From positions 82,544,760 through 82,608,759 of the forward strand of contig CM060316.1 in assembly GCA_030674155.1 (NCBI GenBank): 64,000 bases of DNA, read 5' to 3'. The first letter of the stretch is position 1; each line of letters starts with the position of its first letter. The position numbers and the translations under genes were made by a program. Below the pieces are notes generated by a model that did no database searches, was not told where the DNA came from, and saw only the letters and a list, made by a program, of their open reading frames with translations. Below, one piece after another: positions 17,830 to 59,296 of the stretch. Source of the DNA: Stramonita haemastoma (Eukaryota; Mollusca; Gastropoda; Neogastropoda; Muricidae).

Positions 17830-20800
17830 GTGTGTGTGTGTGTGTGTGCACATGTGACTTGTGCAGTGGCAGTATGTGCCAACATGTTTTCTAAGGTTTT
17901 TTTATGCCTTTTTATGAAGACTTCTCTTTGATTTGCAAACATGTTTTTCTTTTGCTCATTTTAACATGTGGACATGCTTATTTTTGTTGTGGTTTTGACC
18001 AGTGTGCTGTATTTTAACATAGAAGGATAGTGTGTCTTAAGCTATTGCATTTGCATTAGTTCTAACAACTGGCTTGACTGAAAACATGCTTATAGTGCTT
18101 GGTTAGCTCTGGAAATGAAACCTGTGAAACTTATGAATTGATTGTGCTTTGTGCATAATACTAGCATCTGTACCACCCCCCCAAAAAAAAAAACAAAAAA
18201 AAAAAAAACCCAAAACCAAACAAACAACAAAAAACAACACAAAACAAAAAACAAAAAACCCAACAAACAAACAAATAAAAAAAACTCAACAAAAAACCCA
18301 ACCCCCTCCATCTCTCCCCTCAAAATAAGTCAGCTCATGGTTGAATTCATCTGTGTGGTTGTAAGAAGTTAAGAGTTATTACCCCTTGCTTGGACCTGTA
18401 GTGGCTCTCATAGGCTAAATGTTTGACTGTCATTTACTCAACTTTTTCAGCAAAAGTTAGAAAATCAATTAAGCCTGAAAGGACAGCTTAAAAAATAGAA
18501 CAAAAAAAAAGGGGGGGGGTTACTTTGTGCTCAGAGTATGGTTATTAATATGATTAAAATTACATATTGATTGAAGCAAAAAGATAAGCATGTCACCATT
18601 TTTTTTAATGGACTGCTTTTGGCTTGAAACTTATTTTGGATTTTTAAAAAATTGAATAAAAAATCTATAACTGACTTGCCTTGTGTAAGCCCATATTAAG
18701 TTTGCATCTCTTGTATGTCTGCAGTTTTGAAAAAAAGTTGCATAATTTACTGAAAAAAAGAAGAAAAATGAATAAAAGAGCAATCTTTTGATTGGGGTGT
18801 GTTTGTTGCACTTCATACTTCAAATCATTGAGAGCAAATTGTGTACTTAATCGTTATCATACTTGACATATGCAGTATCTCATTGAAAGCATGTAAGGGA
18901 AGAGATAAAAAAAGAAAAAGAATCACAGCTAGAAGTTTGATTGGAAGCACAGCATAGGAAGGAAAAGATGACAACTGAAGCGGTTTGTTCCCCCACAGAC
19001 GGAGAGGAGAATGGGGCAGACAGGACGGGGGAGGGTGAAGAGTCCGGCAGCAGGGAGGTGGACTTTCCCTCGGTTCCTGACACCCCCCTGTTGGACACGT
19101 CTGCTAACCGCGCTCGGGCCCAGCTGGCCAGCAACATCCCCTCCCGCAGACCTCCCACAAAGCGCAGCAAGGTAGCAGGACAGCAGCGATGTAGTGTGGG
19201 TTTTTTCTGTTCCTCTGATGTGCCTGCAATAAGCGGCATGTATCAACTTCGGATGTTTTGCCTGTATTATTGAAGAAAAGTCATTATTGAAAAGATTTTT
19301 TCAGAAAGGGAAAAAATGTGGTTCTTCCAGGTTTTTTCATCAAGAAAATATGTACAGGGCTTGAAATGGTTTCAGTAATTATTTGGGGAGATCTTTTGCT
19401 GTCCGTAGAGTTTCCAGCAGAATCTTATGGTCTTTCTCAATGGAAAAAATCTTTGTGATATTTATAGGGGTAGAATCACATGAGTTTCATGTCAGTACTT
19501 ATCTCAGAGAATTTTCAGTGCTCATAAAAATAGAAATTGAAAAAAGTGAGGTGTTTATTGTAAATGTCTGCAGCGTTTGGTTAGTTTGTTTGTGCTACAG
19601 AGCTGATCCTGAAGCTGGGTGGGGTTGTGTGTTCAGTCTTTAGAGCAAGAGCTGGAGGAGCCAGAGGAAGAGGTGATGGTGGCTGCTTCCTCGACCCCTG
19701 AGGTCTTCACCTCTCCCAGTCCCCCTGCCGGCCAGCACGACAGTGGGGAGAGTGGTCTGGAGACCTGGATCAAGCACGACAGGTAACGCAAAAAACAGTG
19801 TCCTGCCTGGACTGGTTGTGGTGTATGTGGGGAGTGTGAAGCAACTGTGTGTTGAGTGGGGATTTTGTCATCATTGTTGTCGCATTCTGTTTGAGTGCTA
19901 CTTTTGTGTACTGTACATGGTTTGCTGTGATTTCATATTTAGAGGGTGGATTTGTTCATACTGTTCAATCTGTGGTAGTTGTTTTTTTTTGCACCGTTAT
20001 ATTTTGTATTGTTTTGTCAGAATGGTTCTGCCATGGTTATGACAGTGGGTTTTTCTGTGCTTTTGAATTGGTGGTGATTGGTTTTGTGTGCTGTTATAAC
20101 ATGTATTTGTGTGTCAAGATGATTGTGTTGATTACTGTGCAGATATATAAAAAATAATATTTGTGTATACGTGGTTGCTGCTTGTTTCAGTATCAAAGAT
20201 TAACAGTCTTGTTTTGCATCATCTTTGGACATAAGTGGATGGATCCAGGCAAAAATGTCTTGAGTATAGTTGACTGATAAAACAAAGGAATTTAATGAAT
20301 TAGGCTGAAAAGCTGTGAAAACTTTTCTTTATAAATTTGATGTGTGTGTTTGGTTTGCATGTACAAAAGTAGACGGGGAAAAGTGTAAGTAAACAGTGAA
20401 ATATTTTGCAATAGTTTTATAGTTCTTTTTCTTTTTGCTTGATTTTTTTTTAAAAAGGAAGAATTGGGTTCATGTTTTATTCTTGCATTTAGCTCAATGC
20501 TGGTCACAAAAATCAAGTGGGCTTGCACATTGCCTTTTGGATTTTTTGTATTTGTTGTGGAAAGAGGGGTGTTAGTAATGTTTTAACTTGTGATGTGATC
20601 ATGAATCCTTTGCTTTGATGCGCTGCCAAGTGTAAGTATTTGACTAGTTTGCAGTAAAGGATGTGCTGTTGTTGGCAAGGAAGATGAAGAGTAGAGGAAA
20701 AGGGGATAAAAGAAAGAACCAAGAAAGAAGGAATTTAAAAAAAGCTTGAGTGAGAGAGGGAAGAGAAGACTGCTTATGAGAGAATACAGATCAATAATGA

Positions 20801-34069: not shown

Positions 34070-34572
34070 CATAACAACTACATATCAGCCCATGAGGTTT
34101 AACAGAAAGACAAAAAAAATTGTATGCCTTTTTTGAAGTCAAAATTCTTTATTTTTTGCTTCTGAGAGGAGAGACATTCACTGATACATTTGTCTCCGTT
34201 TGTTGAATAGTGTGCGATATGGAAAATAAAGCTTTAGACTGTTCATAGATGGTGTTGAAGCATTGACAATGCTTTTGTGTGTACAGTTTGTTAGGTTTAA
34301 AAAAAAAAAGTTTAAAATTTTTTTAATTCATATTTTTTACTCTGTTTGTGTCTGATAATGTTTCTCTGATGCGCTGTGTGCATTGCAGGAGAACGTGTCG
34401 CCCAACAAGCGGAGCCAGAACCAGTTTGAGTCGTGCGGGATCTGGGATTGGAACCCGGAGCACGTGTGTCACTGGCTGATGGCCCTGGAGCTGGAGCAGT
34501 ACACAGCCAACTTCATGGAGAAAAACATCAACGGCAGCCAGCTCTTGATGCTGGATGGATCCAGGCTGAAGG

Positions 34573-53279: not shown

Positions 53280-53824
53280 TACTTACTTACTTATGCCTGT
53301 GAATAACCTTGGGAACATAGGGCTGCAACAACACTCATCCAACGGACTCTGGGAGATCCTCTTCAGCTCTGCCCATGTCATTCGGCTGCCTTCATCTCAA
53401 TGCTTCTGCGCCAGGTCTGTTTTGGTCGACCTACTTTCCGCTTCCCTTGTGGGTTCCAGTCAAGGGCCTGCCTGGTGACGTTTAAAGCAGGCTTGCGGAG
53501 CGTATGGCCGATCCATCCCCATTTCCTTTTCTTGATCTCTGTCTTGATTGGAGCGTGTCTGGTCCTGTCCTACAGTTCTTCGTTTGAGACGACTTCTGGC
53601 CACCTAATACCGAGGGTGTTCCTAAGACATCTGTTGGTGAATGTTTGGAGTTTGTGGGTGTTGGTCTTTGTTACCCGCCAGGTTTCTGAGCCATACAGAA
53701 GGACCAACTTGACGTTGGTGTTGAATATTCGGATCTTGTTGTGGAGTGAGAGGGCTGTTGATGTCCAGATTGGGCGAAGGGTGTTGAAGGCATGACGGGC
53801 TTTATTTATCAAAAAGAACAACAC
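53280..53824 (-). pseudogene. Non-LTR reverse transcriptase remnant
   Basis: On the minus strand: NKARHAFNTLRPIWTSTALS, LHNKIRIFNTNVKLVLLYGS, ETWRVTKTNTHKLQTFTNRC, LRNTLGIRWPEVVSNEEL, then a stop, then [40 protein letters not shown] and [17 protein letters not shown]. The KLVLLYGSETW and [10 protein letters not shown] motifs are those of RTE/CR1-like C-termini. The stop stands where Trp is expected, and further breaks follow. A TAAG repeat at 53280-53294 marks its 3' end. Confidence 0.88.
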
Positions 53825-55028
53825 AGGGACATGATAATAAAAGAAAATGATAGGCCTACTTACACAGAAAATGCTCGCCTCTCTTATGACTTCGATCTAC
53901 GCCCTTTACTCTGTAAAGTAAATGTAGGCCCTACTGACAACCATAATATCTGGGATGATAGCTTTAGACTCTTTCCGTTACTACCAATGATTATGTAATA
54001 CCTAGGGCTCATACCTTCTCTCGCCTCTGCTGACTCGAGACCTTACACAAGACAGGAAGAAAAGCCAAGACAGCTACCAGATGGTCATTTCTGAAGATCT
54101 CTGTAGTCCAGCTCTCCGAGAGCTTCCTTCTTCTAGTCGGGCCTCTATTCACATCGGTTCTAGAAATCCATGTGCGACTTAACGGACAGTAGTTTGAAAT
54201 TTGTTGCAATCTTAGCGCATTGTAACATAGTTTAGAATGTTTTAGGGTCGATTTTGATGCTTCTCGTTGCGTGTGTTTCTTTATTATTAGTCTTATATTC
54301 GATTGTATGTGGTTGTTTTACTTCGCGGTTTACAATTTCTTAATTTGAAATAATCAAGTAGTCTTCCGCCTTTGAGTCGAGTAGAACTGAAGATATTGGG
54401 GAAGTCTTTTAAGAGAGACACACGCTAAGCCAGACACGAGTCATTTATGGTTACACTGTGGTTCATTGTTTAGAGCTCTGTACATCTTGATGAAGGAAAC
54501 AAAAAATAATCAAATACACATTATTATGAGTCGTGGCAAAACGATTAAGGCTGCTAATAGTAGGCCTATTGATGATTTGTATGATTTTGGGGGGTAATAT
54601 TGAAAACACAAATAAACGGCTCATGATGCACTCACTCAATATTAACCAAAGTGGAAATGAAAAGCACTTAGTGGCAAAGTTGAACGAAACCGTAATTTTT
54701 CGTATCTGATCTAAGTGTTGGGCCACAGTATCACCACCATGACTGTGTTGTCACCAGCTTCTTTATATACAAGAGTTCATAACTATAAGGCAATCCCAGT
54801 CATCCACATTCCAAGTAATAAATAAAACAATATAGTAATAAATAGGCCTGACACGCCGGCAAGTCGCAATTCTATATACAGTAGTAGTCACGTGACAGAT
54901 TTATAGTCTCCCCCATGGGGATGACTTACGGTTAATCCTATGTTTTTGCGTCAGTCATGCTTTTGTACAACTGGACGACAAAACACAGGCAGAAATGTAT
55001 GAATGACACTGGCAGAGCCACTGCCATG

Positions 55029-56166: not shown

Positions 56167-56321
56167 TCAGGGGCCGCGGATAGACAGGCAGACCGGGAAG
56201 AGCTCAGAGCGTGGTCCGTTGAGCAACCGCTGACACATCTCCCTCAGGAACAACTGTCGGAACCGGGTGTAATCTGGGTCTCCAGTCAGTACTGTAACAC
56301 ACCACAGTTCTCGAGTTACGT
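56167..56321 (-). CDS. Exon 2 of candidate secreted peptide precursor
   Basis: Read on the minus strand. The acceptor CTGTGCTCTCAG precedes 56321 and the exon begins with AC, completing a codon opened by exon 1 (A|AC, Asn). It reads VTRELWCVTVLTGDPDYTRF, RQLFLREMCQRLLNGPRSEL, FPVCLSIRGP, then TGA at 56169-56167. There are three cysteines (residues 138, 160 and 175 of the joined protein). Codon use is GC-rich and open over the full 155 bp. N131-V-T is an N-glycosylation sequon created at the junction. An internal CAG acceptor (exon start 56291) is less likely since the upstream part is also coherent. The product is not recognised. Confidence 0.6.
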
Positions 56322-56385
56322 CTGAGAGCACAGATTTTTTGGTTCTTTTTTAAAGCAGATTTTACAAGTGAGATAGATATTTAGT

Positions 56386-56709
56386 TATTCTTTTATATCG
56401 AGGATGATGGAATAAGCACTCATGTGCTTTTTTTCATCCAGTCCCCGTGTGTATGCAGTTTTGTAAATATCATCTGTTCCCACCGGCACTCGTACGAAAA
56501 GCGGAAAAGGGTTTAACGTGTGCGCTAGATGTTCAGTGTGCGTTCGCACACGGGGCTCGGGTTTATAGTCTCATCCGAAGGACTTTTGGGGACAGTGGAG
56601 TCAGTACTGATGTTAACTCCAGAGGAAAAATCCCCTCGAACGGAAATCGAACCTGGGTCGTCAAATTGCGAGCGCAGTGTTATGACCACTAGGCTAGGCT
56701 ATCCCGTCC
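56386..56709 (-). mobile_element. Common-family SINE, full length, minus orientation
   Basis: On the minus strand: head GATAGCCTAGCCTAGTGGTC with a small CCTAG duplication, B box GGTTCGATTTCC, body with CCTTCGGATGAGACTATAAA and CGCACACGTTAAACCC, tail with AGCACATGAGTGCTTATTCC and a run to 56386. It lies within the intron of the candidate peptide gene. The microsatellite on the right touches its head. Confidence 0.9.
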
Positions 56710-56710
56710 T

Positions 56711-56794
<84 letters not shown>

Positions 56795-56828
56795 GTAGGT
56801 AGGTAGGTAGGTAGGTAGGTAGGTAGGT

Positions 56829-56870
<42 letters not shown>
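56711..56870. repeat. (GATA)n, (GGTA)n and (GA)n microsatellites in series
   Basis: About 21 GATA units (56711-56794), then about 8 GGTA/GTAG units (56795-56828), then GA (56833-56870). The stepwise change from one unit to the next suggests slippage on mutated units. Confidence 0.95.
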
Positions 56871-56872
<2 letters not shown>

Positions 56873-57415
56873 TTTTTGCAATTTAAGCATTTTACATTCA
56901 ATAAGTTGACTGAGGGGTGGACGGACTGATTGACCGACTAACTAACCAATCAACCAACGAACAAACGAACCAATCAATCCCCGGCTGAGATGGAAATACA
57001 TAATTGTTTTTACCCACAGGACAAAATGAACAATTATTGGACAAATGGTTTAAGATGCACAGATCAACAACATAATCAATCAATATGCATATTCCACAAG
57101 TGTGACTTGAGTGTTATCACACGAGATACTTTTGTAAACAGGAACACATTTACAAAGAAAAGGTATCCTTTTTTTTTTGTCCTGGCTAAAACTTTGGTGC
57201 CTTTCTTTTTGGAGGGGGGAGGGGGGGTGTATGCAACTGTTTGCTCACTACCAATGTTGCCACGTTTGGACTTTGGGGATAATGTATAAGCATGAATCTA
57301 ACATGCATGTTTTTTTTTTCCAACAAGCTTGCCATGGCAAGCACCTCTCTGAATTTTAGAATGGGATTTTCTTGCGTGTAACTGAGAGTATCTAAGGATG
57401 TGTTCACATTTTCAT

Positions 57416-57640
57416 TTTATTTTTTATATCAAGGATAATGGAATAAGCACTCATGTGCTATTATTATTATTTTTTATATTTTACATCCAGTCCTCGTGTG
57501 TATGCAGTTTTATAAATGTCATCTGTTCCCACTGGCACATGATGGCCCACTCTTACGAAAAGCGGAACAGGATTTAACGTGTGCGCAAGATGTTCTGCGT
57601 GCGTTTGCACACGGGACCTCAAGTTCGAAGTCTCATTCAA
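57416..57640 (-). mobile_element. Common-family SINE, head missing, minus orientation
   Basis: The tail (ATATCAAGGATAATGGAATA) and body up to the CACACGGGACCTCAAGTT segment are present; the head half is replaced by unrelated sequence after about 57640. A TTATTA expansion lies inside the tail. Confidence 0.85.
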
Positions 57641-58570
57641 AGGATTGAAAATGGATTGGGGTCTGCATACAAGTTGGCTTTGAAGGGAAAGTCTCTTACA
57701 ACCAACTGGCCAACAGAGAGAGTCCAGCATGAGATCAAGCCTAGAGCAAACTACCCACTTAGTCTACTGTGCGACCAGAGGTGAAGTGCTGGCTACGACT
57801 GATGCTATTCTCATCGGTCACTGACTCGTGCTTTAACTGTCAAGAAGTTTACAATGAGGATAGAGAGGATGACTCCCCCCCCCCCCCCCTCGTCCTCCCT
57901 CTACCAGGATTATTTATTTTATGCGATGTAAACATGTCCACATACTTCCAGGTGGCTGGATATAACATGTTCTTTTGTTTACTGCTCCTACTCCCCCTCA
58001 TTCTTTTCCAGCTTTTTCCTTCACGTTAAGTCAGATCTGTATAACAGGTTCCCCCCCCCCCCCCCCCTTTTCTGTTCCTTCTTTCAAATGGTATCTTTCT
58101 TTCTGGCTGTTTCTTCTCGTTAAGCCAGTTCTGTGTGATGGTCTCTTGATTTCCCCCCTTCTGTTCCTTCTTTCAAATGGTAGCTATTTTCTGTATTTAT
58201 TTTAATTTAAAGCCTGTCTGACACTGGTCATAAAGAATGGAATGCTGACAAAGAATAAAATTGATTTGATCTGTACTGTATGGTCATCCTATCTGCCAGA
58301 TTGCAGGTGTTAGTCATCTGGAATAAATATGTATTTTTCTTTGCATATTTCTGTCCGCTTTTTTTTTTTTTTTTTTACCACGTAAAGATACCAAATGCAG
58401 GGCAGATAAACTGGGTGGGTTTTTTTTTACTTTAAAAACTCTCCCCGTTTTTTGTACGTTTTTATTTATTTGTTTGCTAGCTTGGCAAGAAATATTGTGA
58501 GAAGCTGACTGCCTTTGTCTAGAAAAAAGTATTTGTTCCTGTCATTAAAAACAACAAACCCCACCCCTAT
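57641..58570. other. Intronic stretch of candidate peptide gene
   Basis: Two similar blocks (57985-58075 and 58110-58185) share TTCTGTTCCTTCTTTCAAAT, suggesting a local duplication of about 90 bp. There are poly-C runs (57875 and 58052) and poly-T (58365). No exon recognised. Confidence 0.5.
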
Positions 58571-58665
58571 CGCCACCCCCAACCAAACAGTAAGAAGAGT
58601 AAAACACTGATTCTCAACAAATGTTCACGAACAGAACCACCTGTATGCCTGCTGGAGGAAAAGAT

Positions 58666-58690
58666 CCCCCCCCCCGGGGGGGGGGGCCCC
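58666..58690. repeat. C10-G11-C4 palindromic homopolymer
   Basis: A run of about ten C is followed directly by about eleven G and then four C, a perfect snap-back sequence. It could be a true hairpin or an assembly artefact. Confidence 0.9.
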
Positions 58691-58905
58691 ATGAAAAAAT
58701 TAATATGCAGATTTGGAGACAGGGAATGGCTCTGGCCCAAGAAACAAATAATATATATAGATTTGGCATGAACCCATTCCCAATACTTTAGCATTGACAT
58801 GAAGCCAATAGAGGTTGGGTTGGTCCATCACCTGTCCTCGCCTTTGAGGAAAAAACAACTTAAAAAGCAATCAAAATAGGAAAAAAAGAGCCACCCTTCA
58901 CGTAC

Positions 58906-59296
58906 TTGCACGCAGACGTTTGGGTAGGTCGTCAATGGTGCCCCCAGGTGGAATCATGGCGATGATTTCAGAGGTTGTGGGGACGTCTGTGGAAGATTGT
59001 GGCAGCAAGGAGGGCCGGGAGAACGCCCCTCTCTTGGGAGAAGCCTGGTTTCCCCGTACTCTGCCAAGCAAGCGGTTGTAGTACTGGCCTCGGGACACAG
59101 CGCCAGATGCCCGGCTTGTGCTGCCTGCAGGTGGGGGATCAGAGGCACGGGGGGCGTGGGTGGAAGGCTGCATTCTGTCTACGCCTCTACGGCCCCATCT
59201 CCCATTGTACAGCTGTGTGTAGAGGTTCCCGTCAGCCACGTGCACACAACACAGCACCATTAGCAGAAAACTCAGGGACCATCTGGAGGGACACAT
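58906..59296 (-). CDS. Exon 1 of candidate secreted, amidated peptide precursor
   Basis: Minus strand. The ATG at 59296-59294 has A at -3. Residues 1-23 are a signal peptide (MCPSRWSLSFLLMVLCCVH then VADG, with A-D-G before the cut). The next 11 residues are NLYTQLYNGRW, immediately followed by G-R-R, the standard signal for dibasic cleavage and C-terminal amidation. The spacer is Pro/Ser/Arg-rich and includes SRGQYYNRLLGRVRG, a possible second peptide. The end of the exon, TSEIIAMIPPGGTIDDLPKR then LRA, contains the dibasic KR (126-127). The donor GTACGT at 58905 fits the consensus, and the exon ends in phase 1, matching exon 2 at 56321. Joined length is 181 residues. I find no family match from memory. 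Confidence 0.65.

Follow-up and report, generated by a model that had tools for sequence, protein, structure and literature searches.

A gene on the minus strand of the window, the whole 64,000-nucleotide stretch of Stramonita haemastoma DNA analysed here, encodes in two exons a protein with snail homologues and a conserved C-terminal cysteine pair, and the amidation motif that follows its first aromatic segment is absent from the four relatives in which that region is present. We give an even chance to the view that this gene is one of a family of secreted peptide precursors in caenogastropods and is single copy as far as testable. Such an unnamed family, shared by whelks and periwinkles, would combine a compact conserved cysteine domain without a recognised fold with repeated FYNQRW cores that are open to peptidomics and receptor tests.

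Homologues and copy number

With the sequence alone as query against about 5.8 billion proteins, 143 candidates yielded a single protein at E <= 1, a 177-amino-acid hypothetical protein of Nucella lapillus (P0001), which was matched over 98% of its length with an E value of 1.4e-44, indicating a real gene and not a chance reading frame, as first proposed. A two-row profile then added proteins of Babylonia areolata (P0002) and Littorina saxatilis (P0003) (at which point three of 3032 candidates had E <= 10), and a four-row profile added two nameless ENA proteins, P0004 and P0005 (five proteins among 7995 candidates sharing most words). Identity to the window protein was 57% for Nucella, 50% for Babylonia and 36% for Littorina, all three of them Caenogastropoda. 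P0004 is without the N-terminal part, and counts for that part therefore cover five of the six sequences.

None of the relatives carried a functional name. Pfam returned no match for the 181-amino-acid model or for the Nucella, Babylonia, Littorina and P0005 proteins, and the 181-residue model had no match among PDB sequences. The literature searched gave no description of the family, and none of its papers contained stretches of the family's own sequence, although sequences in the figure or supplement of a muricid survey (PMC10036341) may include it; the accessible part of that survey counts 88 neuropeptide precursor genes in the muricid Reishia clavigera. The suggestion that no known family is involved is in keeping with these results.

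When the 2.17-Gb genome was searched with exon 1, the query matched only itself (1 match, 13 candidates scored), and the Littorina protein matched only exon 2 of the gene (1 match, 9 candidates scored). Because the Littorina query missed the gene's own exon 1, divergent exon-1 copies might escape it. The gene thus appears, as far as could be tested, to be single copy at the sensitivity of these two queries only.

Gene model and splice acceptor

The first-pass annotation had joined positions 59296-58906 to 56321-56167 on the minus strand, and ORF translation with a splice-site check reproduced its 181-residue protein exactly. Both exons encoded protein with snail relatives in the frame proposed, bearing out two in-phase minus-strand exons; the relatives, however, placed the second acceptor at 56291, giving 171 amino acids (Table 1). 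In the Nucella, Babylonia and Littorina proteins, PKSQLAA, PKSQLAV and PKSALVV ran straight into LTGDP or RTGDP, so that the join read IPKSQLAxLTGDP in Nucella and Babylonia and IPKSALVVRTGDPDYT in Littorina, with nothing like NVTRELWCVT between. An in-phase acceptor, ACAG/TACTG before TACTGACTGG, starts exon 2 at 56291 and restores this join. Homology of P0005 ended after KSQLA and that of P0004 began at VLTGD (VLTGDADYT); judging from these break points, the two proteins would extend into the intron from opposite ends. NVTRELWCVT had little likeness to the P0004 stretch at the same place except V-x-V at the join.

Table 1. Features of the gene, with identities of protein regions to the Nucella, Babylonia and Littorina proteins, in that order; Littorina values depend on a gapped alignment
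Feature	Positions	Strand	Identical residues	Remarks
Exon 1 coding part	58906..59296	-		Residues 1-130 plus one base; donor A/GTACGT at 58905; aligns along its length with the Nucella and Babylonia proteins
Signal peptide, residues 1-23 by inspection	59228..59296	-	12, 9, 9 of 23	Hydropathy; most hydrophobic at about residues 7-20
Aromatic segment NLYTQLYNGRW, residues 24-34	59195..59227	-		By inspection
Gly-Arg-Arg amidation/cleavage signal	59186..59194	-		Window protein only: 1/6 sequences, 1/5 with the N-terminal part
Residues 24-38			7, 8, 7 of 15	
First spacer, residues 39-65			9, 8, 7 of 27	26-33%
Second conserved segment AVSRGQYYNRLLGRVRGN	59048..59101	-	14, 11, 5 of 18	In the alignment, close to the second FYxQRW copy in P0005 and Littorina
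Second spacer, residues 84-105			8, 3, 2 of 22	9-36%
Residues 106-130			16, 16, 6 of 25	
Intron, phase 1, as set by relatives	56292..58905	-		Holds microsatellites and two dispersed-repeat copies
Extra exon-2 stretch of the first-pass model, NVTRELWCVT	56292..56321	-		Probably intron; absent from the Nucella, Babylonia and Littorina proteins
Exon 2 coding part with stop	56167..56291	-	31, 28, 24 of 40	C-terminal domain LTGDPDYTRFRQLFLREMCQRLLNGPRSELFPVCLSIRGP, 60-78%; Cys codons 56233-56235 and 56188-56190

Both acceptors are in phase, as are 5 of the 12 AG sites listed, and the pyrimidine content upstream was 0.55 for 56321 and 0.45 for 56291. Because the tract at 56291 is no better than that at 56321, the choice of acceptor rests on homology and not on the splice signal. 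Exon 2 probably begins at 56291, which would make NVTRELWCVT and its cysteine intronic, and 56321 may serve in some transcripts. With the 56291 acceptor, two cysteines are therefore left in the C-terminal domain; the layout that is conserved is C-x14-C, and the third cysteine of the domain originally described probably came from the acceptor chosen. The nearest AATAAA within the 4 kb scanned beyond the stop lies at 54285, about 1.9 kb past it, and says little. ARAGORN found no tRNA in the gene region.

The intron contains two copies of a dispersed repeat (56377-56554 and 57408-57615), 83-92% alike and about 1.05 kb apart, and a minus-strand tRNA-like stretch, GGTTCGATTTCC, lies near 56650 beside the first copy, where ARAGORN called no tRNA; we take the repeat with its tRNA-like neighbour to be perhaps a SINE. 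Elsewhere in the window, 34359-34562 (+) encodes a SAM domain stretch of another gene (Pfam SAM_2, E 1.4e-8), and 53573-53896 (-) matches Pfam DUF6451 (E 3e-19), a frame that we presume from its resemblance to be retrotransposon-derived. A weak match to a tankyrase-binding protein C-terminal domain at 18941-19270 (+) had an E value of 0.0027 and 18.6 bits against a Pfam cut-off of 27.

The C-terminal cysteine domain is the best-conserved region

As shown in Table 1, the C-terminal cysteine domain was the best-conserved part of the protein, more so than the supposed peptide. In many neuropeptide precursors the peptide is better conserved than the rest, which is the opposite of the pattern seen here. 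Read from the alignments, C-x14-C was kept in all five sequences that have the domain, namely the window, Nucella, Babylonia, Littorina and P0004 proteins. Conservation in related species, anticipated for both the peptide and this domain, was thus found for the cysteine domain and the aromatic segment, whereas the amidation signal was absent from the four relatives that have its region.

An AlphaFold2 model of the Babylonia protein, built from six rows, had a mean pLDDT of 55.8, with little order in mid-chain and helices in the C-terminal part at 125-132, 135-154 and 158-169. The 40-amino-acid exon-2 piece modelled alone gave one helix at residues 5-24, best at about 11-20, with a mean pLDDT of 73.7. 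Since the two models disagree on a second C-terminal helix, the last helix is uncertain. Foldseek found no PDB match for the Babylonia model, at its mean pLDDT of 55.8.

The aromatic segment is shared but its amidation signal is not

The N-terminus was hydrophobic by hydropathy and conserved in the relatives, consistent with a signal peptide, which would be cut between A-D-G and N. By inspection, each of the five members with an N-terminus had a matching aromatic segment immediately behind its signal peptide, and the version of the core was LYNGRW in the window protein, LHSPRW in Nucella and LHNRRW in Babylonia. Three cores occurred in Littorina (QFYNQMW, RFNNQRW and RFYNQRW) and three in P0005 (NYYNQLW, GFYSQRW and HFYNQRW), and AVSRGQYYNRLLGR of the window protein aligned near the second core copy. 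A core pattern that was written after seeing the sequences did not appear even once in 20,000 shuffles each of the Littorina and P0005 proteins, and it matched nothing in the window, Nucella, Babylonia or P0004 proteins.

The layout first described, a hydrophobic N-terminus, NLYTQLYNGRW followed by Gly-Arg-Arg and a Pro/Ser/Arg-rich spacer, was recovered in the window protein, but Gly-Arg-Arg is not family-wide. After the conserved Trp, the sequence continued as WASRG in P0001, WGNRA in P0002, WGVNRR in P0003 and WRVRG in P0005, so that G-[KR]-[KR] was missing in all four. The proposal of a novel amidated RW-amide as the conserved peptide is consequently not supported, the motif being found in one of the five members with the N-terminal part, and the family does not fit a conserved amidated-neuropeptide precursor, in which Gly and a dibasic pair bound a conserved peptide, because the site occurs in the window only. 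At best, an RW-amide would be specific to the window lineage, and Gly-Arg-Arg in one genome is too little to name an amidated peptide.

Dibasic sites followed a core in Littorina (MWGVNRR), in P0005 (RWRTLERR, after the third core) and in the window (WGRR). Dibasic pairs occurred elsewhere in the Nucella and Babylonia proteins too, so some processing may still take place in the family. Neither dibasic nor amidation sites kept a common position among family members, and in P0005 no basic residue immediately precedes copy two or copy three.

Proposed precursor and alternative readings

We propose that the signal peptide would take the precursor into the secretory pathway, and that one to three aromatic segments with a core of about (F/Y)(Y/N)(N/S)QRW, the first directly after the signal peptide, would sit on a disordered Pro/Ser/Arg-rich chain. 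The likely signal would be short peptides from the N-terminal segment or segments. The helical C-terminal domain, probably with one disulfide across C-x14-C, would serve folding, sorting or storage, or might itself be released. In the window species, the first peptide could end in Arg-Trp-amide by means of its own G-R-R, whereas the ends in the relatives would differ and be unamidated. We infer secretion from neural or endocrine cells, proteolytic release, the disulfide and action on a receptor.

Several observations argue for this precursor reading: the homologues themselves, spacers that diverge while the C-terminal domain stays at 60-78% identity, the first segment after the signal peptide in 5/5 members, three cores each in Littorina and P0005 with some dibasics after cores, C-x14-C in 5/5, and the predicted C-terminal helices behind a disordered middle. 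It is weakened because no processing site is held in place, because the C-terminal domain outconserves the peptide, and because confidence in the structure models is low to moderate. The first two of these points favour its main rival, an intact small secreted protein in which the helical cysteine domain would be the active part, as a protein hormone, a cytokine-like molecule or another extracellular factor, and the aromatic segments would be binding motifs in the uncut chain. This is a substantial possibility, although we would put it short of even: no known active domain was recognised in Pfam, among PDB sequences or by Foldseek with the low-confidence Babylonia model, and the repeated short cores on divergent spacers resemble peptide copies.

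A conserved RW-amide neuropeptide precursor with a three-cysteine domain, as originally read, could draw on WGRR in the window and on the 56321 acceptor, which is in phase and has a fair pyrimidine tract. The lack of Gly-basic-basic after Trp in 4/4 relatives with the region, and a third cysteine not included in the exon that the relatives use, make it very unlikely. Fast-diverging spacers and a changing copy number would also suit a non-signalling secretory product (of mucus, egg capsule, seminal fluid or similar) in which the repeats are structural, which we regard as most improbable.

Comparison with known peptide systems

Database and literature comparison set the precursor reading beside three systems. 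The molluscan CCK/sulfakinin peptides, which include an oyster GGGRWamide co-peptide, share an RW-amide end near aromatic residues, and oyster CCK2 ends in RW-amide in the portions of the reports available to us (PMC4200219, PMC6219549); by eye, however, the DY...GGGR(F/W) motif was absent from the window protein and its relatives, in which amidation is not conserved. The nemertean GGRWamide, found by mass spectrometry, is likewise an RW-amide peptide and, according to the part of its report consulted, was not detected outside nemerteans (PMC8557429); set beside the window protein by description only, it shared the RW-amide end and no other likeness was seen. In the literature searched, FYNQRW and FYSQRW were not found and FYSQRY alone was present; NGRWamide, NQRWamide and YNGRW occurred in none among the matches listed, and nothing was found on luqin in Neogastropoda. 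The 12 of 26 matching places seen in PMC6425005 held no matching family, which is a weak negative.

The first-pass annotation had likened the gene to luqin-type precursors in layout, and this likeness held: like luqin/RYamide precursors (also described in the available part of PMC5576490), the window family has a signal peptide, a putative peptide directly after it in one or more copies and a C-terminal cysteine pair. Membership did not follow. The family has C-x14-C in place of the usual C-x10-C, the signal encoding an R(F/Y/W)-amide end is in the window only and missing in 4/4 relatives, WRPQ of molluscan luqins is absent from the window protein, and the genome carries a separate luqin-type exon. 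Cysteine spacing alone does not bar membership, since accepted luqins vary too; in the parts of the sources seen (PMC7041311, PMC5940834), 8 residues lie between the cysteines in C. elegans, one cysteine is lost in Drosophila, and luqins of parasitic flatworms have no cysteine pair.

The separate exon, on contig C28 at 15158076-15158104 (+), has clean splice signals and encodes AVPTNKPYYWRPQGRYGKRSSHFSSSDDDFDIL (WRPQGRY-GKR). It was found by a genome pattern scan allowing one mismatch, which gave 2 places, the other with Ser codons; exact WRPQGRF(G) patterns occurred at 13 and 14 genome places, and at all of them a Ser codon stood in an Arg position. When about 54 kb downstream were scanned with a filter for the C-x10-C exon of this gene, six candidates came up, none convincing by eye. 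The C28 peptide, NKPYYWRPQGRY-GKR, would have an RY-amide end, as against the RF-amide given for molluscan luqins in the portions of reviews seen. The C28 exon appears the better luqin candidate, and the window gene was rejected as luqin because the same genome carries this separate exon.

Two arthropod peptides come close to the cores of the window family: the crustacean pEGFYSQRYamide resembles FYSQRW of P0005 (known from a reference-list entry in PMC5940834), and the Daphnia pQTFFTNGRYamide, which follows its signal peptide, resembles YNGRW of the window protein (PMC7041311, in the part available). We do not claim luqin membership, because a resemblance over six core residues can arise by chance. 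It is conceivable, though unlikely, that the family is a second, caenogastropod-specific offshoot of luqin/RYamide, in which an FYxQRW precursor would have been kept beside the true luqin gene, the cysteine spacing would have changed and amidation would mostly have been lost, while an RW-amide end would have been regained or retained in the window species.
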